64,000 nucleotides of DNA from an uncultured Salinisphaerales bacterium (lineage in GTDB: Bacteria; Pseudomonadota; Gammaproteobacteria; Nevskiales; CAJXLF01). The stretch lies in the NCBI GenBank assembly GCA_913055805.1, contig CAJXLF010000009.1, forward strand, positions 1-64,000, in the 5' to 3' direction. The notes under the pieces were generated by a model. The model did not search any database. It was not told the DNA's origin and worked only from the letters and a program-made list of their open reading frames with translations. The translations under genes were made by a program, and so were the position numbers. Below, piece after piece: positions 9,501 to 47,763 of this stretch (its first letter is position 1; each line of letters starts with the position of its first letter).

Positions 9501-9514
9501 TTGACATAGATCAA
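9501..9514 (+). promoter_or_regulatory. FNR/ANR-type box before ompW
   Basis: TTGAC-ATAG-ATCAA matches the FNR/ANR consensus TTGAT-N4-ATCAA with one base changed. It ends 61 bases before the OmpW start codon, a position compatible with activation. FNR control of ompW is known in enterobacteria, which supports the reading. Confidence 0.65.
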
Positions 9515-12486: not shown

Positions 12487-12500
12487 TTGACGTGAATCAA
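12487..12500 (-). promoter_or_regulatory. FNR/ANR-type box before the PPK2-VIT operon
   Basis: TTGAC-GTGA-ATCAA differs from TTGAT-N4-ATCAA by one base. Its near edge is 57 bases from the PPK2 start on the reverse strand. Confidence 0.6.
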
Positions 12501-18771: not shown

Positions 18772-18785
18772 CTGATCTAGATCAA
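18772..18785. promoter_or_regulatory. FNR/ANR-type box shared by hemN and ccoNOQP
   Basis: CTGAT-CTAG-ATCAA differs from the palindromic TTGAT-N4-ATCAA only in its first base. It lies 58 bases from the hemN start and 74 bases from the ccoN start. hemN and ccoN are classic FNR/ANR/FixK targets. Confidence 0.75.
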
Positions 18786-18858
18786 GGCAGCCCATCCACC
18801 TGCTGAGGAAAATGCCTCCCACGGAGTGAACAATTCACGTATCAAGGAGGCCAACCAC

Positions 18859-20331
18859 ATGGCTGGCAACGAAACCCCGGCTGCGGCTGCAGTCAACTAC
18901 AACGACCGGGTGGTGCTGCAATTCACCATCATGACCCTGGTATGGGCGGTAGTGGGCATGGGCGTTGGCGTGTTCATTGCCGCCGAGCTGATCTGGCCCG
19001 GACTGAGTATGAACCTGCCCTGGCTGAGCTACGGCCGGTTGCGCCCGCTGCACACCAATGCGGTTATTTTCGCTTTTGGCGGCAGTGCCTTGATAGGCAC
19101 CTCCTACTGGGTGGTGCAACGCACCTGTCAGACAAGACTTGTATTCGACAAACTGGCTGCCTTCACCTTCTGGGGCTGGCAGGCAGTGATTGTGGGGGCA
19201 GCCATTTCGCTGCCATTGGGTTACACCCAGGCCAAGGAATATGCTGAACTCGAGTGGCCTTTGGACCTCCTCATTGCCTTGGTCTGGGTGTCTTATGCCG
19301 TGGTGTTTTTCGGCACGATCATGCGCCGCAAGACACCGCATATTTATGTCGCGAACTGGTTTTATGGCAGTTTCATTCTGACGGTAGCCATCCTGCACAT
19401 CGTCAACAGCGCCGCCATACCGGTTTCGCTGACCAAGTCCTATTCGGCCTATGGCGGCGCTGTGGATGCCATGGTGCAGTGGTGGTACGGACATAACGCC
19501 GTCGGCTTTTTCCTCACCGCAGGCTTCCTGGGCATGATGTACTACTTCATTCCCAAACAGGTCGGCAAGCCGATCTACTCCTACCGCCTGTCCATCGTGC
19601 ACTTCTGGGCGCTGATTTCCATCTACATGTGGGCCGGTCCGCATCACCTGCACTACACCGCCCTGCCCGACTGGGTGCAGAGCCTGGGCATGGTGTTCTC
19701 GCTAATCCTGCTGGCGCCCAGCTGGGGCGGCATGATCAACGGCATCATGACGCTGTCCGGCGCCTGGCATAAGCTGCGCACCGATCCCATCATCAAGTTC
19801 CTCATCGTGTCGCTGTCGTTCTACGGCATGAGCACCTTCGAGGGGCCGATGATGTCCATCAAGACGGTCAATGCCCTCTCGCATTACACCGACTGGACCA
19901 TCGGCCATGTGCATTCCGGCGCACTGGGCTGGGTGGGCATGATCACCATGGGCTCGTTGTATGTGCTGATCCCGCGGCTGGTGAACCGCGAAAGCATGTA
20001 CAGCACGCGCCTGATTGAAATCCACTTCTGGCTGACCACCCTGGGTGTGGTGCTGTACATCGCCGCCATGTGGGTGGCCGGCGTGATGCAGGGTCTGATG
20101 TGGCGTGCCACGGATGAAAACGGAATCCTGGTTTACAGCTTCATCGAAAGCCTCAACGCCACCTATCCGTTCTACGCGGTGCGCCTGGCCGGTGGCGTGC
20201 TGTACCTCACCGGCATCCTGGTTATGGTCTACAACAGCTATAAAACCCTCATGGGCGCACCGGCCATTGACCTGCCCCAGCCGGATCAACCACCCGCGCC
20301 CAATGCATCCACCGCGGAGGTTCAGACATGA
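18859..20331 (+). CDS. ccoN: cbb3-type cytochrome c oxidase subunit I
   Basis: I start at the ATG at 18859 because AAGGAGG (18844-18850) sits 8 bases upstream; the frame opens at 18826. The 490-residue protein has about 12 transmembrane helices with the His ligands in [46 protein letters not shown] and [16 protein letters not shown]. It forms the heme b / heme b3-CuB centre that reduces oxygen at very low concentration and pumps protons. First gene of ccoNOQP; its stop overlaps the ccoO start (ATGA). Confidence 0.97.
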
Positions 20332-20945
20332 GCGTTACTCACGACAAGGTTGAAAAGAATATCGGCCTCATGGCGGTGCTCATCGCCATCGTGGTGAGTG
20401 TAGGCGGCATCGTGGAAATCGTACCGCTGATGTACTCGGCCTCCACCACCGAGCCGGCCGAAGGCCTGCAGCCCTATAGCGCCCTGGCTCTGGAAGGTCG
20501 TGACATCTATATCCGTGAAGGTTGCTACGGCTGCCACTCGCAGATGATCCGCACCCTGCGCTACGAAACCGAGCGTTACGGGCCCTACTCCACTGCTGGC
20601 GAATCGGTCTGGGACCATCCCTTCCAGTGGGGCAGCAAGCGCACCGGGCCGGACCTGGCCCGCGTCGGCGGCCGCTATTCGGATGAATGGCATGAAGTGC
20701 ACCTGCTGGATCCGCGCACCCTGGTGCCGGAATCCAACATGCCGGCCTATCCCTGGCTGGCCGAACGTCTGATCAAGGCGGATAAAACCGCCAGCAAGCT
20801 CAAGGCCATGAAAACACTGGGTGTGCCTTACAGCGAAGCAGATATCGCCGGCGCGCAGGCAGCCGTGGAAGGCAAAACGGAAATGCAGGCCCTGATCGCC
20901 TACCTGCAGAGCCTGGGTCGTACCCAGGGTCAGGGCAACCGTTAA
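20328..20945 (+). CDS. ccoO: cbb3-type cytochrome c oxidase subunit II (monoheme)
   Basis: A protein of 205 residues with one N-terminal membrane anchor (about 12-34) and a monoheme domain with CYGCH ([14 protein letters not shown]). The [13 protein letters not shown] segment and [11 protein letters not shown] with the distal Met ligand are characteristic of CcoO/FixO. It relays electrons from the diheme subunit to the catalytic subunit. It starts at an ATGA overlap with ccoN; ccoQ follows after 10 bases with AAGGAGA. Confidence 0.96.
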
Positions 20946-20955
20946 GGAGATAGTC

Positions 20956-21117
20956 ATGGTTAACGGAATCTTTACCGCCATTTGCCTGTTTGCCTTCATC
21001 GGCATCGTGATCTGGGCTTACAGCAGCCGGCAGAAAACCCGCTTCGAAGAAGCCGCGCGCCTACCGCTGATGGATGACACAGATGTCCTCGAGAAAATCC
21101 GGGAGAAAGGCTTATGA
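20956..21117 (+). CDS. ccoQ: cbb3-type cytochrome c oxidase subunit CcoQ
   Basis: A small protein of 53 residues starting at the ATG at 20956 with AAGGAGA upstream. One transmembrane helix (FTAICLFAFIGIVIWAY) is followed by a short charged tail (SSRQKTRFEEAARLPL). CcoQ stabilises the cbb3 complex, particularly in air. Its stop overlaps the ccoP start (ATGA). Position, size and topology leave little doubt. Confidence 0.92.
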   Translation: MVNGIFTAICLFAFIGIVIWAYSSRQKTRFEEAARLPLMDDTDVLEKIREKGL

Positions 21118-22007
21118 GCGAGCAACTGAGCACCGGCTGGAGCTGGTTCGTCATCCTGATCACCCTGCTCAATATCGTGGCCTGCCTGTGGCTGATTGCC
21201 TGGGCCTCCATCCGCCGCGATGACGAACCGGCCGAAACTGAAACCACCGGCCATGTCTGGGACAACGATCTGGCGGAATACAACCAGCCCATGCCGTTCT
21301 GGTGGCTGGGTTTGTTCGTGGTCACGATTGTCTTCAGCCTGATGTATCTGGTGGCCTACCCCGGCCTGGGCAATTTCGACGGCCTGTTCAACTGGACGCA
21401 GGAACGTCAGCACGAAACCCAGATCAATCAGGCGGAACATCGCTTCGAACGCAAGTTTGCCGAGTATCACGAGATGGATATCCCGGCCCTGGCGCAGGAA
21501 CCCGATGCCGTGGACATCGGGCGCAAGGTCTACCAGACCTGGTGCACGGGCTGTCACGGCTCGGATGCGCGCGGCGCCAAGGGCTACCCCAACCTGGCCG
21601 ACAATGACTGGCTGTGGGGCGGCGAGCCCGAACAGATCCTGGCCAGCATCAGCAATGGTCGTGCCGGCATGATGCCGCCCTGGCAGGCAGTGCTGGGCGA
21701 CAAAGGCGTGGCTGCTGTCGTCGACTTTATGCAGGATCCGCATGCCGGCACAGCGGCGGTGGAGCAGGGCAAAGCGTTGTTCGAGCAGAACTGCACCGCC
21801 TGCCACGGCGCTGACGGAACCGGTAACACCATGCTGGGCGCACCCAACCTGATGGACGACATCTGGCTCTATGGTGGCGACGAGGCCAGCCTGACCTCAT
21901 CGATTGCCAATGGCCGTCAGCAGGGTCGCATGCCGGCACACCGTGACCTGATCGGTGCCGACAAACTGCGGCTGCTCACCGCTTACATCTACAGCCTGTC
22001 GCATTAA
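21114..22007 (+). CDS. ccoP: cbb3-type cytochrome c oxidase subunit III (diheme)
   Basis: A protein of 297 residues. There are two N-terminal transmembrane helices (about 8-30 and 60-80) with the family's HVWDNDLAEYNQPMPFWW between them, then two cytochrome c domains with CTGCH (GSDARGAKGYPNL) and CTACH (GADGTGNTMLGAPNL). It accepts electrons from soluble cytochromes and passes them to CcoO. Last structural oxidase subunit in the operon. Confidence 0.96.
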   Translation: MSEQLSTGWSWFVILITLLNIVACLWLIAWASIRRDDEPAETETTGHVWDNDLAEYNQPMPFWWLGLFVVTIVFSLMYLVAYPGLGNFDGLFNWTQERQHETQINQAEHRFERKFAEYHEMDIPALAQEPDAVDIGRKVYQTWCTGCHGSDARGAKGYPNLADNDWLWGGEPEQILASISNGRAGMMPPWQAVLGDKGVAAVVDFMQDPHAGTAAVEQGKALFEQNCTACHGADGTGNTMLGAPNLMDDIWLYGGDEASLTSSIANGRQQGRMPAHRDLIGADKLRLLTAYIYSLSH

Positions 22008-22020
22008 GCCCGAGGTCACC

Positions 22021-22311
22021 ATGCCCATAGCCGAGCACCCTGAAATCACCCCACGCAAACCGCTGCCGCGCCGCGTACGCCGCTGGCTGGCGGCTGGCTG
22101 GGTGTCGTTTCTGGCTGCCGCCGCGGGTCTGGCGCCCAGCATCACCATCATGGATCACATCGTCGCAGTTACAGGAGGTCATCAGGACCTGCCCGTGCCG
22201 CTGAGCCTCTACTCCTTGTTGTTCCTTACTCTGTGGGCAACGGCATTGGCAGCGTGCCTGATGGCCTTCCTGCTTCAGGCCGGTTTTCGTAACCGTCCGC
22301 CCGGAGACTGA
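22021..22311 (+). CDS. Small membrane protein between ccoP and ccoG, unknown family
   Basis: The ATG at 22021 has GAGGT upstream and gives 96 residues. There is a basic N-terminus (RKPLPRRVRRW), a first hydrophobic helix (about 24-42), a short loop containing a GGHQ segment, and a second helix (about 60-82). It is spaced 13 bases from ccoP and 2 bases from ccoG, so it belongs to the transcription unit. I do not recognise the family; CcoG is usually adjacent to ccoP. A role in oxidase assembly is inference from position only. Confidence 0.75.
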   Translation: MPIAEHPEITPRKPLPRRVRRWLAAGWVSFLAAAAGLAPSITIMDHIVAVTGGHQDLPVPLSLYSLLFLTLWATALAACLMAFLLQAGFRNRPPGD

Positions 22312-22313
22312 TC

Positions 22314-23729
22314 GTGTCGGCCGATCCGAAGTCATTGCATGAGGTAACGGCGCAACCGCTGTATGCGCACCGCAAAAAGGTCTACCCGCGCCTGCTACTG
22401 GGCCGTTATTCCTACCTGCGCGGCGCCGCCACCCTGATATTGCTGGGGCTGTACTACGTCATTCCCTGGATCGTGATCAACGGCCAGCCACTGGTGCACT
22501 TCGATCTGCCGGCGCGCCGTTTCCACATCTTCTTTTTCACCCTGGTACCACAGGATCTGTTCCTGCTGACCTGGCTGCTGATTATCGCCGCCATCACCCT
22601 GTTCTTCTTCACCAATCTGGGCGGGCGCCTGTGGTGCGGCTACGCCTGTCCGCAGACGGTCTGGACCAAGACGTTCCTGTGGATGGAAGAACTGGCGGAA
22701 GGCAACCGCGCGCATCGCATGAAGCTGGACCGCGGTCCCTGGACCACGGAGAAGGTGCTGCGCCGCAGCGGCAAGCACCTGCTGTGGATCGTCTTTTCCC
22801 TGTGGACCGGCTTCACGTTCGTGGCCTATTTCACGCCCGCGCCGGAACTGACCGGCAAAGTGGTGGACCTGGGCCTGGGTCCCTGGGAAACCTTCTGGAT
22901 TCTGTTTTACGGTTTCGCCACCTACGGCAATGCCGGCCTGCTGCGCGAGCAAGTGTGCAAGTACATGTGCCCCTATGCACGCTTCCAGAGCGCCATGTTC
23001 GACAAGGACACCATGATCATCTCCTACGACGAGGCACGCGGCGAACCCCGCATGAGTGCCAAGAAAGCGGAGAAATACGAAGGACAGGCCGGTGACTGTG
23101 TCGACTGCACCTTGTGTGTGCAGGTGTGTCCCGTGGGCATCGATATCCGCGATGGCCTGCAGTACGAATGCATCGCCTGCGCGGCCTGTATTGATGCCTG
23201 TGACTCGGTGATGGACCGACTCGACCGGCCACGCGGCCTGGTGCGCTACACCACGCATCATGCGCTGCATGGACAGGCCAGCAAACTGCTCCGCCCCCGA
23301 ACCATCGCCTACGGGTTCATCTGGGCTTCCCTGTGTGTCGGCCTGCTGGTGGCGCTCTTCCTGCGCAATCCCATCGCCCTGGATGTGGTGCGTGACCGCA
23401 ATGCGCTTTATCAACTGGTGGGCGATTCGGTGGAAAACGTATACACGCTGCACATCACCAACAAGTCCGAGGAAGCCCATCGCTTTGCCCTGTCTATTGC
23501 CGACCTGCCGGGCGCGCAGTTCAGCCCGCCGGTGGGTGAATTCCGGCTTGAGGCACGCGCCAAACAGCAAGTGCCGGTACGTATCCGGGTGCCGGCCGAC
23601 AAACTGGCGCCCGGCGCCAACGACATTGAAATCGTGGTGACGCGTGTCGGCAGTGAAAAAGCGGCATCGGACACGGCCACGGCACGCTTCTTCGCGCCAT
23701 TCAACACCACGCCGGGAGGCACACGATGA
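22314..23729 (+). CDS. ccoG: Cytochrome c oxidase accessory protein CcoG (FixG)
   Basis: The start is a GTG at 22314 (GTGTCGGCC), 2 bases after the preceding stop. The 471-residue protein has about five transmembrane helices and CGYACPQTVW. Two [4Fe-4S] motifs follow: CVDCTLCVQVCP and CIACAACIDAC. The C-terminal domain (after about 350) is an immunoglobulin-like periplasmic fold. CcoG/RdxA acts in copper reduction and delivery for cbb3 oxidase assembly. Its stop overlaps the next start (ATGA). Confidence 0.95.
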   Translation: MSADPKSLHEVTAQPLYAHRKKVYPRLLLGRYSYLRGAATLILLGLYYVIPWIVINGQPLVHFDLPARRFHIFFFTLVPQDLFLLTWLLIIAAITLFFFTNLGGRLWCGYACPQTVWTKTFLWMEELAEGNRAHRMKLDRGPWTTEKVLRRSGKHLLWIVFSLWTGFTFVAYFTPAPELTGKVVDLGLGPWETFWILFYGFATYGNAGLLREQVCKYMCPYARFQSAMFDKDTMIISYDEARGEPRMSAKKAEKYEGQAGDCVDCTLCVQVCPVGIDIRDGLQYECIACAACIDACDSVMDRLDRPRGLVRYTTHHALHGQASKLLRPRTIAYGFIWASLCVGLLVALFLRNPIALDVVRDRNALYQLVGDSVENVYTLHITNKSEEAHRFALSIADLPGAQFSPPVGEFRLEARAKQQVPVRIRVPADKLAPGANDIEIVVTRVGSEKAASDTATARFFAPFNTTPGGTR

Positions 23730-23908
23730 ACAGCACTACCAGTCGCTGGTACCAGGAACCCATGGCCATCATGGTCTTCGCCATTCCGCTGCTGACCGTC
23801 GTTGCCGGACTGATTACGGTCTGGATTGCCGTGCAATCCGCGGACCACAGGGTCGTGGAGGGCGTCAATCGCTTCGGCATGCAGACCACCGTTGAGCAGC
23901 AGCAATGA
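23726..23908 (+). CDS. Short FixH/CcoH-like membrane protein
   Basis: A protein of 60 residues starting in an ATGA overlap with ccoG and ending in an ATGA overlap with ccoI. The segment SRWYQEPMAIMVFAIPLLTVVAG, one transmembrane helix and then VVEG resemble the membrane-anchored start of FixH/CcoH. The periplasmic FixH domain of about 100 residues is missing. CcoH proteins are needed for stable cbb3 assembly. This may be a minimal form, as the frame is intact and tightly coupled on both sides. Confidence 0.75.
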   Translation: MNSTTSRWYQEPMAIMVFAIPLLTVVAGLITVWIAVQSADHRVVEGVNRFGMQTTVEQQQ

Positions 23909-26310
23909 CACTGCCCTGCCGGCATTGCGGCGACAACGTTCCCCAAAGCCGCACGCTGCTCGACGAACCGGCACGCGGATACTGCTGCGCCGGCTGTGAA
24001 GCGGCAGCGGCCTTCGCCGCTGGCGAAGCCGTGTCGTTTTCCGATTACGATCATGACGATGTACTCGGCAGCATCGCCCTGATGACCGCCGAGGGCTGCC
24101 GTGAAGCGGACGTGCTGGTGGAAAACATCCGCTGCGGCGCCTGTGCCGCTGATATCGAACAGCGCCTGCGCAAACTCAATGCGCTGTACAGCGTCAGCGT
24201 CAATGCGCAGACCCGCATCGTGACCCTGCGCTGGGATGCGCAGCGCCTGCCCTTCAGCCGTATTCTCGAAACCATTGCCGCTGGCGGCTACCGGCCGCGT
24301 CCGCTGCCGCTGGACGCCGGTCTCGGCGACCTGCGCCGCGACGACCGGCGCGCCATCCTGCGCCTGGGCCTGGCCGGCCTTGGCACCATGCAGGTCATGA
24401 TGCTGTCGCTGGGTCTGTACATGGGCAGCGACCTGGGCCTGACCGGTGATATCCGCCTGCTGCTGACCTGGGCTTCCATGCTGCTGGCCACCCCGGTCAT
24501 TCTCTATTCCGGCCAACCGTTTTTCGCCGGCGCCTGGAACGACCTGCGCCACCGCCGCGTCGGTATGGACGTACCAGTGGCGCTGGCCATCGGCGCCGCC
24601 TTCGCCATGAGCGTGGTGCATACCCTGCAGGGATCGGGCGAAATCTGGTTCGACTCGGCCTGCATGTTCGTGTTCTTCCTGTCACTGGGACGGCATATGG
24701 AAGCCACCGGCCGACGCCGTGCACAGCAGGGTCTGCGCGCCCTGGTAGCCAGCCAGCCGCATACCGTCACCGTGCTGGAAGACGGCCAGCCGCGCGTGGT
24801 GCCGGCCGAACAACTGCGTTGTGGCATGACCCTGCTGGTCAGGCCCGGCGAGACCCTGGCCGCGGACGGCAGCATTCTGCATGGCCGCAGCGAAGTGGAT
24901 GAGTCCCTGCTTACGGGTGAATCGATGCCCCGCCAGCGCCAGCCGGGCGACCCGGTGCTGGCCGGCAGCGTCAATCGCGCCCAGGCGCTGGAAGTGCGTA
25001 TCGAAAAAGTCGGGGCCGACACCACAAGGGCGCACATGCTGCGCCTGCTGCGACGTGCCGAGACACGTAAACCGGCTGCCGCCCGTATTGCCGACCGCAT
25101 TGCCGTGTACTTCGTTTCCGTGGTGCTGGCTATCGCCGCCCTCACCGCGCTGGCCTGGGCGCAGCTGGACCCCGAGCGCGCCTTTGAAATCACGCTGGCC
25201 GTAATGGTGGTCACCTGCCCCTGCGCCCTGTCCCTGGCCACCCCGGCCAGCCTGTCAGCCGGCGCCGCAGCGCTGGCACGCCGGGGCCTGCTGGTGACCC
25301 GTGGTCATACGCTGGAAACGCTTGCCCATGTCACCGACGTGGTGTTCGACAAGACCGGCACCCTGACCGACTGCCGCCTGGAAGTGGCAGAAGTGCAGGG
25401 CTCGGAGCACTGGCATCGGGATCAGGTTCTGGCGCTGGCGGCGCGCATGGAACGCGACCACAGCCACCCCATAGCCGAAGCCCTGCGTCCTTATACCGCA
25501 ACCGGCGATCCTGCCCTGGAGACCGAATGGCAGGCCGGCCGCGGCGTAAGCGCCATGCTGCAGGGGCGGCACTACGAACTGGGGTCGCCGGCATTGTTAC
25601 TGGATGACAGCCGGAAAAGCGGGCCGGATGACGAGGTATCGAACGGCCATACCTGGCTGGTGCTGACCGAGGACAGCCAGCCTGTCGGCTGGATCGCATT
25701 ACGCGCAGGCATCCGCCCCGAGGCGCCTGCAGTCATCGCCATGCTGCAGTCCGCCGGGCTGCGCGTGCATCTCATGTCGGGCGACGGTCCGGCAGCTGTC
25801 CGGCATGTGGCAGCCACGCTGGGCATCGCCCATGCCCGCGCAGACATGCTGCCGGACGCCAAGCTGGCCGCGGTGGAGAAACTGCGTGCCGAAGGCGCCC
25901 GTGTACTGATGGTGGGCGACGGCCTGAACGACGCTCCGGTACTGGCGGGTGCCGATGTCTCCATTGCCATGCAGTCGGGCGCCGCCCTGGCCCAGGCCAG
26001 CGCCGATGCCGTGCTGCTGAACGAAAACCTCGCCGTCCTGGTCGAGGCCCGCGCCCTGGCACAGCAGACGCAACGCATCCTGCGCGAGAACCTGACCTGG
26101 GCGATTGGCTACAACGCGCTGGCCGTACCGCTTGCCGTGCTGGGCCTGCTGACGCCCTGGATGGCTGCTATCGGCATGTCGGCCAGTTCCATGCTCGTGG
26201 TAGGCAATGCCTTGCGACTGCTCAGCGCCCAGCCCCCTCACCCCAACCCTCTCCCGCCAGGGGAGAGGGAGCGTTCTCTATCCCCTCTCCCCTCCGTGGG
26301 AGAGGGTTAG
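23905..26310 (+). CDS. ccoI: Copper-exporting P-type ATPase for cbb3 oxidase assembly
   Basis: A protein of 801 residues. The N-terminus has a Cys-rich domain (CRHCG, then YCCAGCEAA), followed by a heavy-metal-associated domain with GACAADIEQRL. P-type ATPase motifs follow: TGES (actuator), the intramembrane CPC (VVTCPCALS), the phosphorylation site DKTGTLT and the GDGLNDAP hinge. It moves Cu+ to the periplasm for CuB insertion into CcoN. The last ~25 residues (rich in P, G, L and E) are translation of a palindromic repeat that carries the stop codon; the native protein probably ended near LLSAQPP. Confidence 0.95.
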   Translation: MTLPCRHCGDNVPQSRTLLDEPARGYCCAGCEAAAAFAAGEAVSFSDYDHDDVLGSIALMTAEGCREADVLVENIRCGACAADIEQRLRKLNALYSVSVNAQTRIVTLRWDAQRLPFSRILETIAAGGYRPRPLPLDAGLGDLRRDDRRAILRLGLAGLGTMQVMMLSLGLYMGSDLGLTGDIRLLLTWASMLLATPVILYSGQPFFAGAWNDLRHRRVGMDVPVALAIGAAFAMSVVHTLQGSGEIWFDSACMFVFFLSLGRHMEATGRRRAQQGLRALVASQPHTVTVLEDGQPRVVPAEQLRCGMTLLVRPGETLAADGSILHGRSEVDESLLTGESMPRQRQPGDPVLAGSVNRAQALEVRIEKVGADTTRAHMLRLLRRAETRKPAAARIADRIAVYFVSVVLAIAALTALAWAQLDPERAFEITLAVMVVTCPCALSLATPASLSAGAAALARRGLLVTRGHTLETLAHVTDVVFDKTGTLTDCRLEVAEVQGSEHWHRDQVLALAARMERDHSHPIAEALRPYTATGDPALETEWQAGRGVSAMLQGRHYELGSPALLLDDSRKSGPDDEVSNGHTWLVLTEDSQPVGWIALRAGIRPEAPAVIAMLQSAGLRVHLMSGDGPAAVRHVAATLGIAHARADMLPDAKLAAVEKLRAEGARVLMVGDGLNDAPVLAGADVSIAMQSGAALAQASADAVLLNENLAVLVEARALAQQTQRILRENLTWAIGYNALAVPLAVLGLLTPWMAAIGMSASSMLVVGNALRLLSAQPPHPNPLPPGERERSLSPLPSVGEG

Positions 26311-26320
26311 GGAGAGGGGG
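26233..26320. repeat. Palindromic intergenic-type repeat at the 3' end of ccoI
   Basis: The outer arms (26233-26255 and the matching 26298-26320) are complementary apart from about three positions and form a long stem. Two smaller hairpins lie inside, built from CCCTCTCCC and GGGAGAGGG. The C/T- then G/A-rich design, translated as PHPNPLPPGE, is that of the common dispersed palindromes of proteobacterial genomes. Here the repeat supplies the ccoI stop codon (26308-26310) and abuts the ccoS ribosome binding site. I found no second copy in the window. Confidence 0.8.
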
Positions 26321-26331
26321 AGGAGACACAT

Positions 26332-26496
26332 ATGACCGCCCTTTATCTGCTCATCCCGCTCAGCCTGGTGCTGGTCGCGCTGGCCATTGCCGCCTTTATC
26401 TGGGCGGTGAACAGCGGCCAGTTCGAGGACCTCGACACCCCCGCCTGGCGCGTACTGGATGACGACGCCTCAGACCGCCATGATCCACCTGCCTGA
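26332..26496 (+). CDS. ccoS: cbb3 oxidase maturation protein CcoS
   Basis: A protein of 54 residues from the ATG at 26332, with GGGAGGAGA upstream. One N-terminal transmembrane helix (LYLLIPLSLVLVALAIAAF) is followed by FIWAVNSGQFEDLDTPAWRVL, the hallmark of CcoS/FixS. CcoS is required for cofactor insertion into CcoN. It overlaps the following TauE-like gene by 17 bases. Confidence 0.95.
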   Translation: MTALYLLIPLSLVLVALAIAAFIWAVNSGQFEDLDTPAWRVLDDDASDRHDPPA

Positions 26497-27175
26497 TCTG
26501 AGTTTTTTTTCGGCCATGCTGGCCGGCCTGCTGAGCAGCACGCATTGCATTGCCATGTGCGGTGCGCTGGCCCTGGCCGGGCATGCCCCCGCGGCCGGAC
26601 AATCACATGGACCTGACCAGGTTCTATCGCTGACGGCCTATCATGCTGGCCGCTTGTTTTCCTACGCCCTGGTCGGCGCCCTGGCCGGCGCCAGCGGCGG
26701 CTGGTTGCTGACGCAGGCCTGCAGCGAAGAAGTCCTGGCCCTGTGGCCGCGCGTGGTCGCCAATCTGGCGCTGATCGGTATCGCCCTGGCCATGCTGCTG
26801 GGCTGGCGTGGCCTGGAACGCAGCGCTCGCCCTTTTCTGCCGCTGTGGCGCCGCATCATGCCCGTCACTGCCCGCCTGCGCCGCCTGCCTGGCCCGGGCG
26901 CCAGATTCACCCTCGGTATGCTCTGGGGCTGGATTCCCTGCGGACTGATCTATGCTGTGGCGGCCACCGCCGCCATCAGTGGCTCTGCCAACACGGGCGC
27001 CAGCCTGTTGCTGGGTTTTGGTATCGGCACCCTGCCCGCCCTGCTCGGCGGCAGTTTGCTGATGGGTAACGGCCTGGCCCGGATTGCCGGTAATACCGCA
27101 GTGCGCCCATTACTTGCGATGGGCATTCTGACCGTAAGCCTGTGGCAGCTGACAGCCGCCGCATCACAGCTCTAG
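26480..27175 (+). CDS. Sulfite exporter TauE/SafE-like (UreH domain) membrane protein
   Basis: From the ATG at 26480 the protein has 231 residues; an ATG at 26459 would add seven. Six transmembrane helices are apparent. The first carries SSTHCIAMCGALALAG, with the Cys/His pattern of the UreH/TauE_2 family, and a WGWIPCGLIYAV segment forms the second half. This family is regularly the last gene of ccoGHIS clusters and is thought to act in metal or redox homeostasis; transport of sulfite itself is not established. It ends convergently with the glyoxalase-like gene with a 4-base overlap. Confidence 0.88.
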   Translation: MIHLPDLSFFSAMLAGLLSSTHCIAMCGALALAGHAPAAGQSHGPDQVLSLTAYHAGRLFSYALVGALAGASGGWLLTQACSEEVLALWPRVVANLALIGIALAMLLGWRGLERSARPFLPLWRRIMPVTARLRRLPGPGARFTLGMLWGWIPCGLIYAVAATAAISGSANTGASLLLGFGIGTLPALLGGSLLMGNGLARIAGNTAVRPLLAMGILTVSLWQLTAAASQL

Positions 27176-32670: not shown

Positions 32671-32684
32671 TTGACCCATATCAA
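32671..32684 (+). promoter_or_regulatory. FNR/ANR-type box before the small cytochrome c gene
   Basis: TTGAC-CCAT-ATCAA differs from TTGAT-N4-ATCAA by one base and ends 51 bases before the ATG at 32736. Confidence 0.6.
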
Positions 32685-41193: not shown

Positions 41194-41207
41194 TTGATCT
41201 GGATCAA
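41194..41207. promoter_or_regulatory. Perfect FNR/ANR box between the PLD gene and a coiled-coil gene
   Basis: TTGAT-CTGG-ATCAA matches the FNR/ANR consensus at every fixed position. It lies 84 bases from the PLD-family start and 57 bases from the ATG at 41264. Confidence 0.8.
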
Positions 41208-42547: not shown

Positions 42548-42588
42548 CGGGGCCTCTATAAGGTTCGTGTACACAGATACCCCTGGCA

Positions 42589-43356
42589 TCAGGCGGCCCG
42601 GCGGTTTTCGCACGGTGTGGATGTAATGCCCAGCGGCTGAGCCAACGCCCACAGTGCCTGCGGGTCGTTCAATTGCAGACAGCGCTGCCGGGAACGAATC
42701 ATGCCTTGTTGCTGAAAGCGGCTGAGCACGCGGCTGGCGGTTTCCGGCGCCAGGCGCAGGAAACTGGCAATGTCGCGACGCGGCATCAACAGTTCAATTT
42801 CCCCGTTCTTGCCGATATGACGCTGTTGCTCACGTTCATAGAGATGCAGGAGGAAGGCCGCCATGCGCTGTTCGGCACTGTAGTCGCCGGCCAGGGCCAG
42901 TGCGGTGGAGAGATCCTTGCTCATCATTTTCAGCAAGCGTTGCTGCAATTCCGGCTTGCTGGCCACGACCCGTGTCAGTTGGCTATAGGGAATGCCGCAA
43001 ACCTGGGTCGGTACTACCGCACAGGCACTGCTGGTGTATTCATCGGAATACAGGGCATCCAACGCTACAAGATCACCCGGCAGGTAGAAGCCACGGATGC
43101 GCTCATTGCCATCTTCGTCCAGGGTGTAGGTCTTGATGCAGCCGGATTTCACAGCATACAGCAAGTCGAATTTGTCACCCTCCCAGAAAATATGGGAACC
43201 GGAATCGTTCAGCGGATGGTAGTGCTGCAGTACCGCCTCGTGCTCTTTGTTCTGGTTGTCAGAATAGCGTGCGCAAAGATCACCCACTGCGCAATTGTCG
43301 CAACCGATGGTATTGCAGGCGTCCGTGCCTTCCTGAACGCTTATGGATGTCGTCAT
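42589..43356 (-). CDS. fnr: FNR/ANR-type oxygen-sensing transcription regulator
   Basis: A Crp-family protein of 255 residues. N-terminal cysteines at 14, 19, 22 and 28, with Cys120 in VCGIPYSQL, match the [4Fe-4S] ligand pattern of E. coli FNR. A cyclic-nucleotide-type beta-roll follows, then a long dimer helix and an HTH (RRDIASFLRLAPETASRVLSRF). The ETxSR recognition residues predict binding to TTGAT-N4-ATCAA boxes. It is encoded downstream of fixLJ on the same strand, so it may be both transcriptionally controlled by FixJ and directly oxygen-sensitive. Confidence 0.93.
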   Translation of the reverse strand: MTTSISVQEGTDACNTIGCDNCAVGDLCARYSDNQNKEHEAVLQHYHPLNDSGSHIFWEGDKFDLLYAVKSGCIKTYTLDEDGNERIRGFYLPGDLVALDALYSDEYTSSACAVVPTQVCGIPYSQLTRVVASKPELQQRLLKMMSKDLSTALALAGDYSAEQRMAAFLLHLYEREQQRHIGKNGEIELLMPRRDIASFLRLAPETASRVLSRFQQQGMIRSRQRCLQLNDPQALWALAQPLGITSTPCENRRAA

Positions 43357-43408
43357 GGCCCTACTCCTCTATGACTGAGAGTAAGGATGGCCAAGCGCCC
43401 GCGTTTTC

Positions 43409-43448
43409 GTAATTCGGAATTACCGCAATGGATTGCGGGTACTACGTA
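43409..43448 (-). promoter_or_regulatory. Palindrome and FixJ-like site upstream of fnr
   Basis: Two elements lie between fixJ and fnr. GTAATTC-G-GAATTAC (43409-43423) is a perfect 7-bp inverted repeat about 53 bases before the fnr start. TACGTAG is present on the minus strand at 43442-43448, about 86 bases before the start; it resembles the core that, as I recall, FixJ recognises at rhizobial fixK promoters. Function is inferred. Confidence 0.35.
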
Positions 43449-43466
43449 TATAGAAAATGTATATGC

Positions 43467-44087
43467 TCAAGAGTCCTGTTGAGCCTCGAGCATCAAACGC
43501 ACCAGGTCGGCCACGGAAGCCGCCCCCATCTTTTCCATGACCCGCGCGCGATGCAGCTCCACCGTCCTCAAGCTGATATCCAGCTCTATGGCGATCACCT
43601 TGTTGGCCTGGCCGTCAGCGACACGGCGGGCAACCTCGGCTTCCCGCGGCGTGAGGTTTTGCAGACGTCTCTGGGCCTCGTTGCGGGCGCGACTCTGGCT
43701 ATGGCTTTGCGCATGCACCGTCAGTGCCTGACGGATTCTCTGTAACAGCTCCTCTTCGCGGAAGGGTTTCTGCAGAAAATCCAGCGCGCCTTCCTTCATG
43801 GCCTCCACTGCCAGTGGCACATCCCCGTGGCCCGTAATAATCACTACGGGAACATCCCAGCGGCGATTACGCACCTCACGCAATAGTTCCATACCGCTTA
43901 GACCGGGCATACGCATATCGAACAGCGCGCAGGCAGGGCCGGAGCCGTCATACTTTTCCAGAAATTCCTGACCATTACGGTAGCCCGTGCTCTGCAGGCC
44001 TACCGAACGCAGCAACAGGCTGATGCCGTCGCGCACGGCATCGTCGTCATCCACTATATGTACCAGGCTGTCGTCGCGCATAGTCAT
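43467..44087 (-). CDS. fixJ: FixJ-type response regulator (receiver plus LuxR HTH)
   Basis: I start at the ATG at 44085-44087 (206 residues). The longer frame needs a TTG inside fixL. The receiver domain has DDDD acidic residues (13-16), the phosphoacceptor Asp57 in FDMRMPG, and Lys107 in LQKPF. The C-terminal LuxR/FixJ HTH includes LTPREAEVARRVADGQANKVIA and ISLRTVELHRARVMEKM. It would be phosphorylated by the adjacent FixL at low oxygen and activate targets such as fnr. Confidence 0.92.
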   Translation of the reverse strand: MTMRDDSLVHIVDDDDAVRDGISLLLRSVGLQSTGYRNGQEFLEKYDGSGPACALFDMRMPGLSGMELLREVRNRRWDVPVVIITGHGDVPLAVEAMKEGALDFLQKPFREEELLQRIRQALTVHAQSHSQSRARNEAQRRLQNLTPREAEVARRVADGQANKVIAIELDISLRTVELHRARVMEKMGAASVADLVRLMLEAQQDS

Positions 44088-44103
44088 TGAATCCAGACTT
44101 TTG

Positions 44104-45270
44104 TTATTCCGCAATCGGCAGTTTCAGCGTGAAATTCGCGCCTCCGTAGCGATTATTCACGCATACCAGATCACCGCCATGATTTTCCATAATACTGCGG
44201 CACAGAGCCAGGCCCATACCCAGGCCCTCGGGCTTGGTGCTGAAGAACGGCTCGAATACCCGCGGCAGCACCTCATCTGATATACCGGGACCACGGTCAC
44301 TGACGGTAATTTCCAGATAGCCGTTTCGCTGCCGGCCGAGAATGGAAATCGTCTCGCCCACCCGCACCTCGCGCATGGCCTCGGCCGCATTGCGGATGAG
44401 GTTGAACAGCACCTGCTGAATCTGCACCGCGTCTGCCGAAACTTCCGGCAGTCCGGGTTCCAGCATGAACTCCAGGCTGAGCTGCCTTTCACGCAAGTCC
44501 AGCTCGGCAATCTTGATAAGGTCCCGGATCAGCACCTCTGGCTTGATGATCTCCCGGCTGCTTTCACCCTTCTTGATCAGACCCCGCAGGCGCCAGATGA
44601 TCTGGCCGGCGCGCTCTGCCTGCTTGGCGATCTTGTCCAGGGTTTCTACCAGCAGAGCGTCGTCAATCTTGTCTTGCCCGCTGCTCTCGACCAGCCGGCG
44701 GCAGGCATTGGCATAGCTGGCAATAGCGGTCAGCGGCTGGTTCAGTTCATGCGCCAGGCCACTGGCCATTTCACCCATCATGCCCACACGGGCCACATGG
44801 GTGAGGCGCTCGCGTACTTCCCGCACTTCGGTCTCTGCCTGCTTGCGGACGCTGATGTCACGGATGAGACCGAGATAAACCGGCCGGCCACTGATACTGG
44901 CTTCGCCCACCGCCAGCTCTATGGGAAAGGTATGCCCGTCCTTGTGCAGGCCGACCACTTCACGTCCGATACCGATAATACGCGCCTCACCTGTGTGCTG
45001 ATAGCGGTGCAGATAATCATCGTGTTCGCTGTGATATGGCTCGGGCATGAGGATATGCACATTGCGGTCGTACACTTCCTCTGCCTTGTATCCAAAAATC
45101 TTCTCGGCTGCGCGGTTGAAACGCTGGATCAACCCGTACTCGTCGATTTCAATCACGGCATCCACCGCGGCATCGAACAAGGTATCAAATTCAGCCTCGG
45201 CATTGAGCAAGCGCTGCTCGAGCGTTTCCAGGTTTTCGCGTTCTTCGAGAGTGCGTGACTTGTCTGACAT
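44104..45270 (-). CDS. fixL: FixL-type heme-PAS oxygen-sensor histidine kinase
   Basis: A soluble protein of 388 residues with one PAS domain (about 27-140), a HisKA domain and an HATPase. The PAS domain carries LMPEPYHSEHDDYLHRY and RIIGIGREVVG. His83 aligns with the heme-ligating His200 of Bradyrhizobium FixL, Arg89 with Arg206 and Arg103 with the oxygen-gating Arg220; the H214 position is Arg97. The phosphoacceptor is His174 in GLAHELNQPL. ATP-site motifs IRNAAEA, DRGPGIS and GLGMGL follow. It should be an oxygen-inhibited kinase. No membrane segments are present. An FNR box lies 42 bases upstream. Confidence 0.93.
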   Translation of the reverse strand: MSDKSRTLEERENLETLEQRLLNAEAEFDTLFDAAVDAVIEIDEYGLIQRFNRAAEKIFGYKAEEVYDRNVHILMPEPYHSEHDDYLHRYQHTGEARIIGIGREVVGLHKDGHTFPIELAVGEASISGRPVYLGLIRDISVRKQAETEVREVRERLTHVARVGMMGEMASGLAHELNQPLTAIASYANACRRLVESSGQDKIDDALLVETLDKIAKQAERAGQIIWRLRGLIKKGESSREIIKPEVLIRDLIKIAELDLRERQLSLEFMLEPGLPEVSADAVQIQQVLFNLIRNAAEAMREVRVGETISILGRQRNGYLEITVSDRGPGISDEVLPRVFEPFFSTKPEGLGMGLALCRSIMENHGGDLVCVNNRYGGANFTLKLPIAE

Positions 45271-45311
45271 ACCTTCAACTCAACCGGCCAAACTGTTTTT
45301 TAGGTGAAGGG

Positions 45312-45325
45312 TTGACCTGCGTCAA
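45312..45325. promoter_or_regulatory. FNR/ANR-type box between fixL and a helical-protein gene
   Basis: TTGAC-CTGC-GTCAA is a perfect palindrome with a symmetric T-to-C change from TTGAT-N4-ATCAA. It is 42 bases from the fixL start and 57 bases from the ATG at 45382, so FNR may feed back on its own upstream sensor. Confidence 0.6.
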
Positions 45326-45381: not shown

Positions 45382-45840
45382 ATGATGCGCTTTCAAACCA
45401 CCCGCGAGTTACTGGACAAAACCCGCCAGTTTCACATTGAAGCCTCTGAATATCTGCGGCGGCTGTCACAGGCAAAAGACCAGAAGCGGGTAATGATGTT
45501 GCTGGATTACCTTGCCAGGCATGAACAGAAACTCGCCGAAAATGTTGAGCACTTTGAAGAGGACGCGCGACCATCATTACTCAATGCCTGGTTTGACGAA
45601 GCCCCGGAAATATCACTGGAAGAAGCATTGGAGAGTCTGAAGTTACATGACGGCCTGGATATGGAAGATGTCATCCGCCTGGGCATGCATCTGGGCGACT
45701 ATCTGATCTGGGCCTTTGAGTATCTGGCGGAACAAGCGGAATCTGAAGAAGTGCGCGACGCCTTCACCAACCTCGCAGGCATGGCGCAGGCCGACAAGAG
45801 GATTCTGGTGCGCGATTCCAACATGCTGCAGGATTTCTAA
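45382..45840 (+). CDS. Helical-bundle protein (ferritin-like in pattern), unknown function
   Basis: A protein of 152 residues with AAGGAATGC upstream. The sequence is almost all helical with Glu/His spacing in at least four helices (TRQFHIEASEYLRRL, DYLARHEQKLAENVEHFEED, VIRLGMHLGDYLIWAFEYLAEQAESEEVRDAF), reminiscent of rubrerythrin/ferritin-like bundles. I do not see a clear paired ExxH diiron motif, so metal binding is not claimed. An FNR-type box precedes it, divergent from fixL. Its 3' end overlaps the convergent GGDEF gene by 4 bases. Confidence 0.75.
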   Translation: MMRFQTTRELLDKTRQFHIEASEYLRRLSQAKDQKRVMMLLDYLARHEQKLAENVEHFEEDARPSLLNAWFDEAPEISLEEALESLKLHDGLDMEDVIRLGMHLGDYLIWAFEYLAEQAESEEVRDAFTNLAGMAQADKRILVRDSNMLQDF

Positions 45841-47210
45841 CCCGTTCCACCCGCCCGGGCATCAGCAATGCGCATGAGTTCGTCCGCGTCTCGACCATCC
45901 TGCGGCAGGAACGCCACACCGAGGCTGCGCGACAGGTAGAGCTTGTCGCCCAGCAGCGGAAAAGGTTCATCCAGCACTTCGAGGATTTGCTCACCCACGG
46001 CTCGGGCTTCCTCAATACTGCCCACGGAACGAAGAACCATTGAAAAATCGCCGCCACCCAGATAGGCGGCAAAATCTTCTGCCTGCAAACCACTGCGGAT
46101 TCGGTCCCCCAGGGTTTCCAGCAAGAGCTCCTCAATGTCGCTGCCCAGCGACCCCATCAGGGTCTGAAAATCGTGTATGTCGAGTAATAACAGGGCCATG
46201 GATTGATCACTGTCATTGCAGGCCTGCAGTACATGCTCATAACGGTCCTTGAAGGTGGCTGGCGTCATCAGCCCGGTCAGTTCATCGACACGCCGGGCCC
46301 GCTCGCGCGCCTCGCGCATGGCTTTTTCATCGCTGATGTCATCGTGGATGGAAATGTAATGACTGATGTCATCGCCGGTTTTTACCGGACTGACCGTCTG
46401 GCGGATGGTATAGAGTTCGCCCTGGCTATCGCGGTCAATGGTTTCACCGCTCCATACGCGGCCGCTGCTGATGGTGCGCCACAACCGGTCGTAGTAGCGG
46501 TAACCCTGTTTGCCGGATTTGAGAATACGCGGGTTCCGCCCCAGCACAGATTGCTCGTCATATCCGCTGAGGCGGCCGAAAGCTGCGTTCGCCCACAGGA
46601 TAGTCCCATGGGTATCGGTAATGAAGGCTGCATTACCCGCGGCACTCAGGGCACTGTAGACGAGTTGCTTTTGATGCTGCAGACAGATGGCTTCGCATAA
46701 TCGCCCCATACGCTTGAGCAGGTTCTGCATATCGTCGGCCGCAAGCCAGGCGGCCAGCCTGTTCCTGTCCGCATCACAGAACATCACGGCCCAGATCTGC
46801 TGGCGCCCCTGGTAATTGAACGGCAATGGCATGGCCAGTACGGCGGCCACCCCCTGCGCCTCAGCCGCCTTGCGCCAGGGACTGAAGCCTGGGTCAGTGA
46901 TATCCATCAACACCGCATCTTCCAGACGCAAGGCCTGCACCGAAGGCGCACTGCCTACAATGGAGTCATCGTCATGCGGCGGCAGACGGTGAATTTCCTC
47001 ATCCATGGGGCCACTGCCGGAAGTTGCCAGCGGTAGCATGATCTCGCCGCTCAGGTGCCGTTCCAGCCACATGAATTGCAAACCGAGCGCATCCGCAATA
47101 CCGGCGCAGAGATCATTCAGCACCGAGATTTCCGACTCTCCTTCAACGATGTGCTGATAGGCCTCGCCGAATACAACACTCAGACGCTCGTCAAACATCT
47201 CAATGGACAC
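45837..47210 (-). CDS. GAF-PAS-GGDEF protein with degenerate GGDEF
   Basis: A protein of 457 residues. There is an N-terminal GAF domain (about 10-175) with a C-terminal helix, a PAS domain (about 188-300; ITDTHGTILWANAAFGRLSGYDEQ) with a PAC segment, and a GGDEF-like domain from VDELTGLMTPATFKDRYEHVL. The active-site loop reads YLGGGDFS instead of RxGGDEF: the third G replaces D, and the E/D is shifted. Diguanylate cyclase activity is therefore unlikely; the domain may bind GTP or a partner. It ends abruptly after LMRIADARAGG. It follows a GAF-only gene with an 11-base overlap. Confidence 0.88.
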   Translation of the reverse strand: MSIEMFDERLSVVFGEAYQHIVEGESEISVLNDLCAGIADALGLQFMWLERHLSGEIMLPLATSGSGPMDEEIHRLPPHDDDSIVGSAPSVQALRLEDAVLMDITDPGFSPWRKAAEAQGVAAVLAMPLPFNYQGRQQIWAVMFCDADRNRLAAWLAADDMQNLLKRMGRLCEAICLQHQKQLVYSALSAAGNAAFITDTHGTILWANAAFGRLSGYDEQSVLGRNPRILKSGKQGYRYYDRLWRTISSGRVWSGETIDRDSQGELYTIRQTVSPVKTGDDISHYISIHDDISDEKAMREARERARRVDELTGLMTPATFKDRYEHVLQACNDSDQSMALLLLDIHDFQTLMGSLGSDIEELLLETLGDRIRSGLQAEDFAAYLGGGDFSMVLRSVGSIEEARAVGEQILEVLDEPFPLLGDKLYLSRSLGVAFLPQDGRDADELMRIADARAGGTG

Positions 47211-47688
47211 GCAATCCCGAGGCGATACCTGCCAGGTTTTCCAGCTTCAGCCGACAGCGCTCCGGCAGGTCGCGAACGCCCCGGTCGAGCAGGCAGATAG
47301 CGGCACGGCCATGCTCCAGTGTGAAGGGAATAGCCGCAAAAAAACGCATACGCCAGCCGGGTTCACCACGGCTACGATAGCCGCCCAGGCGTTTACGGGT
47401 ATCCGATACGATCAGCGGTTGGTCGGAGGCCAGGGCCTCCAGTGACAACGACATTTCCGCTGGCAGGGGATGTAGCGCGAGACGCCCGCCGCTGATCACC
47501 TGCCAGCCTTCACCCGGCCGGTGCAGGACAATACAGGCCAGCGCCACATCAAACATCTCCGCGGCAATTTCACAGACACCTTTCAGATGTTCATCTGCAT
47601 TACCTCTGTGTGCGACCGGCAGGGATGCCGATGCCAATCCGTCATCGTTTTCCAATAGATTCTGCTGAATATTGGTGGCCAGATTCAT
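47200..47688 (-). CDS. Stand-alone GAF domain protein
   Basis: From the ATG at 47686-47688, with GGAGAGAAA upstream, the protein has 162 residues forming one GAF domain (about 30-160): LKGVCEIAAEMFDVALACIVLH, FFAAIPFTLEHGRAAICLLD. A CIVLH Cys and several hydrophobics could line a small-molecule pocket. It overlaps the next gene by 11 bases, so it is translationally coupled to the GAF-PAS-GGDEF protein and may be its sensory partner. An FNR box lies 62 bases upstream. Confidence 0.82.
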   Translation of the reverse strand: MNLATNIQQNLLENDDGLASASLPVAHRGNADEHLKGVCEIAAEMFDVALACIVLHRPGEGWQVISGGRLALHPLPAEMSLSLEALASDQPLIVSDTRKRLGGYRSRGEPGWRMRFFAAIPFTLEHGRAAICLLDRGVRDLPERCRLKLENLAGIASGLRVH

Positions 47689-47749
47689 GATCTTTCTCTC
47701 CATGCGCTTATCGCATGGGCAATCTTCTGCCTGGCCACCAGGCACTGCC

Positions 47750-47763
47750 TTGATCTGTGTCAA
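47750..47763. promoter_or_regulatory. FNR/ANR-type box between the GAF operon and hsp20
   Basis: TTGAT-CTGT-GTCAA has one base changed (A to G) from the TTGAT-N4-ATCAA consensus. It is 62 bases from the GAF-gene start and 88 bases from the hsp20 ATG. Confidence 0.6.

Follow-up and report, generated by a model that had tools for sequence, protein, structure and literature searches.

In the FixLJ-FixK2 system of Bradyrhizobium and the FixLJ-FixK systems of Sinorhizobium and Caulobacter, a heme-bearing FixL and its partner FixJ are linked to a Crp/Fnr gene, with cco and hemN downstream. FixJ has essentially one conserved target (PMC4999443). The same parts occur in a window of 64,000 nucleotides, by which we mean the whole stretch of DNA analyzed, from an uncultured Salinisphaerales bacterium (contig CAJXLF010000009.1, positions 1 to 64,000). 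Whereas the FixK proteins of Bradyrhizobium, Sinorhizobium and Caulobacter are without cluster cysteines, the Crp/Fnr gene beside fixLJ in this window encodes a cysteine-bearing FNR that is probably an oxygen sensor in its own right. We consider it likely that FixL and FixJ act on fnr, through a FixJ-type element in its promoter, and that FNR then acts as the second stage of a serial oxygen switch.

The original prediction placed fixL, fixJ and fnr one after another on the minus strand, and the list of open reading frames (ORFs) bears out both this order and the coordinates:

44104-45270, minus strand: fixL, a predicted soluble, single-PAS heme sensor histidine kinase of 388 amino acids (from ORF, domains and residues)
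43467-44087, minus strand: fixJ, a response regulator with a receiver and a LuxR-type helix-turn-helix (HTH) domain; the ORF is open from 44114, and 44087 is the likelier ATG
42589-43356, minus strand: fnr, a Crp/Fnr regulator with Cys14, Cys19, Cys22, Cys28 and Cys120

Pfam assigns PAS (PF00989), HisKA (PF00512) and HATPase (PF02518) domains to FixL, and the best solved relatives of its PAS domain are the heme domains of FixL (E 4e-32). The heme-ligating histidine and gating arginines expected of this protein are present as H83, R89 and R103, all kept in an alignment to solved FixL heme domains, Arg-to-Ala variants included. These arginines are equivalent to R206 and R220 in B. japonicum numbering. 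An IIGIGR motif and the kinase histidine, H174, are also present. FixL is predicted to bind heme and to be inhibited by oxygen. FixJ, encoded downstream of fixL, pairs its receiver with a GerE (LuxR) HTH and is closest to FixJ, with full-length FixJ as its best solved relative; D66 of the ORF sits where FixJ has the receiver Asp, as anticipated. The four N-terminal cysteines and Cys120 ascribed to FNR are likewise in place. Cys19, Cys22 and Cys28 form C-x2-C-x5-C, the spacing of solved FNR of the E. coli type, with Cys120 as the central cysteine. The protein was placed as FNR rather than FixK, a class in which cluster cysteines are absent, by three comparisons: from the cysteine region on it aligns with 142 bits to solved FNR versus 65 to FixK2, it scores 164 bits against NCBIfam Fnr versus 82 against NCBIfam FixK, and in the tree it groups with FNR, apart from alphaproteobacterial FixK (support 98/94). 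The earlier statement that the fixK product often lacks an iron-sulfur cluster also agrees with our data, as the N-terminal cysteine motif occurs in 0 of 34 FixLJ-linked FixK-type proteins, mostly alphaproteobacterial. We infer that the FNR of this locus holds an oxygen-labile 4Fe-4S cluster. The source genome (3.38 Mb, 95.7% complete) contains a single match to it and a single Crp-type HTH above the Pfam curated cut-off; thus, as far as the assembly shows, a cysteine-less FixK on which FixJ could act is absent.

The 110 nt between fixJ and fnr contain a promoter-like element of their own, and fnr need not share a transcript with fixLJ. The region 5' of fnr reads TATACGTAGTACCCGCAATCCATTGCGGTAATTCCGAATTACG, and the promoter has the form TACGTAGTACCCGCA-N8-CGGTAATTCCGAAT, the two blocks lying as follows:

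43434-43448, minus strand: block 1 of the predicted FixJ site, TACGTAGTACCCGCA; the fnr ATG follows 92 nt downstream
43412-43425, minus strand: block 2 of the predicted FixJ site, CGGTAATTCCGAAT, overlapping CCGAATTA; layout from PMC4999443

At 43410-43417, CCGAATTA matches 7 of the 8 positions of CSNAATWT, expected near -33. An exact FNR box is absent upstream of this fnr. Both blocks recur upstream of fnr in relatives from the order, usually at a distance of 23-25 nt from each other, with TACGTAG-like sequence and then CC distally and CCGAAT or CGGAT about 30 nt downstream. Block 1 at fnr is the one exact match in the genome to TACGTASN3CCGCA. A genome-wide FixJ regulon drawn from a search with up to one mismatch was rejected, because its 15 places are no commoner than the 48 that the reversed control gave; the exact site at fnr is therefore the only one that can be claimed for FixJ. 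An automatic promoter scan called neither the fixL nor the fnr promoter.

Evidence that the element belongs with FixLJ comes from a survey of 61 genomes of the order, source included. FixL, called at 1e-60, was found in 25, and in 24 of these an FNR-like gene lies no more than 15 kb from fixL. From 49 fnr places we assembled 41 promoters, leaving out most second fnr copies and adding six from a separate retrieval; 38 were scored, and three without an anchor (G020, with the element; G035, with neither motif; G017, with an FNR box) were left out. The element precedes fnr at 25/28 promoters of FixL genomes and at 0/10 of FixL-less genomes (Fisher 6e-7). The FNR box shows the opposite pattern, with 0/28 versus 8/10 (Fisher 9e-7). 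Random windows scored in the same way, which may include real promoters, gave 290/5800 for the element and 192/5800 for the box. FixL-less here means no match at 1e-60; four such genomes were also negative at 1e-30, and G059 (FixL match 1.4e-49) was counted with the FixL genomes. An earlier count, which used a less strict pattern and placed G059 among the FixL-less genomes, gave 20/21 versus 1/12. The FNR box at fnr in FixL-less relatives is probably autoregulatory, and because FixL genomes have the element where FixL-less genomes have the box, autoregulation of fnr appears to have been exchanged for FixLJ control in this order. By family, f1, f2 and f4 fnr genes occur with FixL and mainly f6 without; in the FNR tree, where the label 'noCys' also covers C-x2-C-x4-C proteins, most of the FixL-less (f6) genes form one clade, set apart.

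The output of the proposed switch would lie in the same window. The FNR-box pattern TTGAYN4RTCAA has 20 distinct sites in 3.38 Mb, versus 8 for the reversed pattern, and 6 of the 20 exact boxes fall in the 64-kb window, which makes up 1.9% of the genome's length (binomial p 1.4e-6). Boxes are given without strand:

9501-9514: exact FNR box, preceding an FMO-like gene (minus strand)
12487-12500: exact FNR box, upstream of PPK2-VIT1 genes (minus strand)
18772-18785: one-mismatch FNR box, between hemN (minus strand) and ccoN (plus strand)
18826-27175, plus strand: cbb3 oxidase genes ccoN, ccoO and ccoP with accessory genes (FixG, P-type ATPase, DsbD-like)
32671-32684: exact FNR box, preceding a 100-aa gene whose product has a heme-c-like CRGCH
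38964: one-mismatch FNR box, by a usp gene
41194-41207: exact FNR box, between a PLD-family gene (minus strand) and a 104-aa gene (plus strand)
41645 to about 42550-42652 (start approximate), minus strand: metallo-beta-lactamase-fold (MBL) persulfide dioxygenase-like gene adjoining fnr
45312-45325: exact FNR box TTGACCTGCGTCAA, in the gap that separates fixL from a divergent 152-aa gene
47750-47763: exact FNR box, between hsp20 (plus strand) and a 187-aa gene that neighbors a PAS-GGDEF gene (minus strand)

Since FNR boxes stand by cco, hemN, usp, hsp20, fixL and others, the window can be read as a microaerobic island with its regulator inside. The order fixL-fixJ-fnr-MBL is found in three relatives of family f4, and the MBL gene hints at a link between oxygen and sulfane-sulfur handling. 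Beside fixL, the stretch 45837-47763 (minus strand) holds the PAS-GGDEF protein and the 187-aa gene, which is without assignment, with the exact box at 47750; an ORF resembling a diguanylate cyclase also adjoins FixLJ in L026, L027 and L028.

An island of this kind with cco, hemN, usp and hsp20 would also arise if FixLJ and FNR were mere neighbors, with FixJ controlling some other target and fnr expressed constitutively, and in G018, G049, G052 and G038:C91 fnr and fixL, though linked, are indeed 6-13 kb apart. Yet the element is kept in all four of these places, and it also stands before fnr genes that are convergent with fixJ, exact in 5 of 6 cases and differing by one base in the other. Being kept in convergent and distant arrangements, the element is no by-product of operon structure, and the one exact copy in the source genome lies at fnr. 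We therefore regard such a parallel arrangement as unlikely.

Ownership of the element was judged against published FixJ sites. PMC4999443 gives the SELEX motifs GTAMGTAG and GTAGTTTCCC, the motif TAAGTAATTTCCCTTA at S. meliloti fixK, and a layout of FixJ-dependent promoters with CSNAATWT near -33 and TAAG near -64. The element upstream of fnr contains or nearly contains both SELEX motifs, and its spacing equals the published -33/-64 arrangement. As a positive control we used 34 FixLJ-linked fixK upstreams, mostly alphaproteobacterial: TANGTAN4-5CCCTWA, whose N5/W variant was added after one Bradyrhizobium site was known, occurs within 2 mismatches in 24/34, versus 22/510 random windows from the same loci. 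The exact pattern is infrequent there (4/34, versus 0.3% of windows). Comparative data place a predicted FixJ site in the promoter of a Crp/Fnr gene, as expected of a FixLJ-controlled cascade. Another regulator that tracks FixLJ might own the element instead, leaving FixJ to act elsewhere, for the assignment is built on published motifs and co-occurrence, and the alphaproteobacterial half-site CCCTTA reads CCGCAA here. The fit to the SELEX motifs and promoter layout, and the enrichment of a related consensus upstream of fixK, make this improbable. A third possibility, that FNR is a FixK-like protein with leftover cysteines and FixL does all the sensing, draws on a FixLJ-linked FNR subclade with a shorter C-x2-C-x4-C and on the odd cysteine set of G058, as if the cluster site were drifting in some relatives, but with all four ligand cysteines at E. 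coli-type spacing in the source FNR it too has little likelihood.

Several observations weigh against a FixLJ-to-FNR switch. None of the three proteins reaches a curated NCBIfam cut-off, and their names are therefore given by best match and residues: FixL obtains 372 of 850 bits for NF041777 (model length 485), FixJ obtains 235 bits for its best match, NF006900, with a cut-off of 255, and the FNR score stays below the Fnr cut-off of 228. The element lies three mismatches from the alphaproteobacterial consensus TANGTAN4-5CCCTWA, so the half-site CCGCAA is a diverged rather than an identical form. When a weight matrix trained on the fnr promoters of the order was applied to alphaproteobacterial fixK upstreams, no clear signal emerged, and the element is absent from both chromosome-2 fnr promoters of B. 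multivorans. Within the order, the strict element is missing at 3 of the 28 promoters of FixL genomes (G038:C49, G058 and G022), although G022 has CACGTAG, one base off. Moreover, because the fnr genes of the order are related, the number of independent events behind the co-distribution may be as low as one or two.

A FixLJ-then-FNR switch nevertheless seems the likely arrangement. Falling oxygen would unload the heme of FixL, which would then phosphorylate FixJ. Phosphorylated FixJ is predicted to bind the TACGTAG...CCGCA / CGG.AA...CCGAAT element and to activate, rather than repress, the fnr promoter. Because the FNR product would be active only with a surviving iron-sulfur cluster, cytosolic oxygen would be checked a second time before the microaerobic island is switched on, including hemN-cco for high-affinity respiration, usp, hsp20 and others. 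FixJ would have one evident target, fnr, as the FixJ of alphaproteobacteria has fixK, and the FNR box found at fnr in FixL-less relatives is missing from this one. The serial control first proposed for this locus is well supported by comparison across genomes, through a conserved FixJ-type element upstream of fnr, and by FNR being the sole Crp/Fnr protein over the cut-off.

The exact box at 45312 had been taken to suggest feedback on fixL. The box itself is real, but it is shared with the divergent 152-aa gene. Measured from the center of the box, the fixL ATG is about 48 nt away and the ATG of the divergent gene about 63 nt, and on the latter side the spacing would suit activation. As read from the letters, TTGACG within the box is a candidate fixL -35, 17 nt from TAAAAA (45297-45302), and for this reason FNR might block fixL in negative feedback. 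Such feedback is possible in the source genome and is not conserved in the order: of 28 places, 3 have an FNR box in the 200 bp that precede the fixL ORF, and feedback as a general feature was rejected on this count. The divergent protein (45382-45840, plus strand) has no Pfam or NCBIfam match.

Related gene sets were also seen beyond the source genome. A receiver-only gene sits between fixJ and fnr in G042, G026, G020 and G058 (L022 351-839, L024 351-869, L025 3088-3714 and L134 6949-7554); it is reminiscent of FixT, without an obvious four-cysteine set. The 80 best named loci of a wider genome scan, from which the 34 FixK-type proteins come, include four gammaproteobacterial loci with a cysteine FNR beside FixLJ (L072, L091, L097 and L121), two of which lack the FixL proximal His in the alignment. 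Methanotroph assemblies (Methylomonas, Methylobacter and Methylococcaceae; L088, L093, L103, L106 and L111) encode FixL-like kinases, most with a FixJ-like partner; the proximal His is absent from them in the alignment, and they are possibly non-heme relatives.

How such an arrangement arose can be suggested only tentatively. An ancestral fnr, autoregulated through an FNR box, may have been captured by FixLJ, losing the box for a FixJ promoter and becoming the single gene served by FixJ in a direct heme-to-cluster relay; the captured FNR, whose cysteine spacing already varies in some relatives, would be a living intermediate on the way from FNR to the cluster-less FixK. We hold this scenario to be somewhat less probable than its negation. 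The locus bears on how FNR could have evolved into FixK, and on what bacteria gain by placing a heme sensor above an iron-sulfur one.

Our searches of the open-access literature yielded no report of a gammaproteobacterial cysteine FNR that is controlled by FixLJ or lies beside it, nor any of fnr in this order having lost its FNR box to a promoter on which FixJ acts directly. The novelty implied by the original prediction is smaller than it seemed, since cascades with two oxygen sensors one after the other are already known from Rhizobium (PMC7888657) and very likely from Burkholderia (PMC5234846, PMC9104464). In R. leguminosarum 3841, a hFixL-FxkR-FixK path raises expression of fnrN, whose product senses oxygen again in a hierarchical cascade (PMC7888657). 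There, as predicted here, a heme sensor raises expression of a second oxygen sensor. The Rhizobium path, however, starts from a hybrid hFixL and passes through FxkR and then FixK as an additional step, and fnrN is also autoregulated, whereas FixJ of the present locus seems to act directly on an fnr without an FNR box.

In the Burkholderia cepacia complex, low-oxygen induction of fixK-lacZ requires FixLJ (PMC5234846), and this fixK is the homologue of anr2/BCAM0049, which shares 43% identity with P. aeruginosa Anr (PMC6127331, PMC9104464). The main text of PMC5234846 makes no mention of cysteine, FNR or Anr. Chromosome 2 of a B. multivorans record carries two Fnr genes, and the products of both have C-x2-C-x5-C together with a central Cys; because both have the motif, the Burkholderia 'FixK' is very likely a cysteine FNR, one of these two candidates, and deserves a look as a possible cluster-bearing FNR. 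One of the two genes follows a receiver-domain gene (L203 781-2067), with GTAGGAAAACCCCTAC upstream of the pair. Burkholderia fixLJ and fixK lie on different chromosomes by locus tag (PMC6127331, PMC9104464), whereas fixLJ and fnr are adjacent here. Caulobacter FixT, an iron-sulfur protein, gives FixLJ a second oxygen or redox input (PMC7078487). FixT is a receiver that inhibits FixL; in the locus described here the iron-sulfur protein would instead be the output transcription factor. Compared with these systems, the locus would represent a compact, single-regulator version of a two-sensor oxygen cascade, with its control point in one element of about 37 bp.

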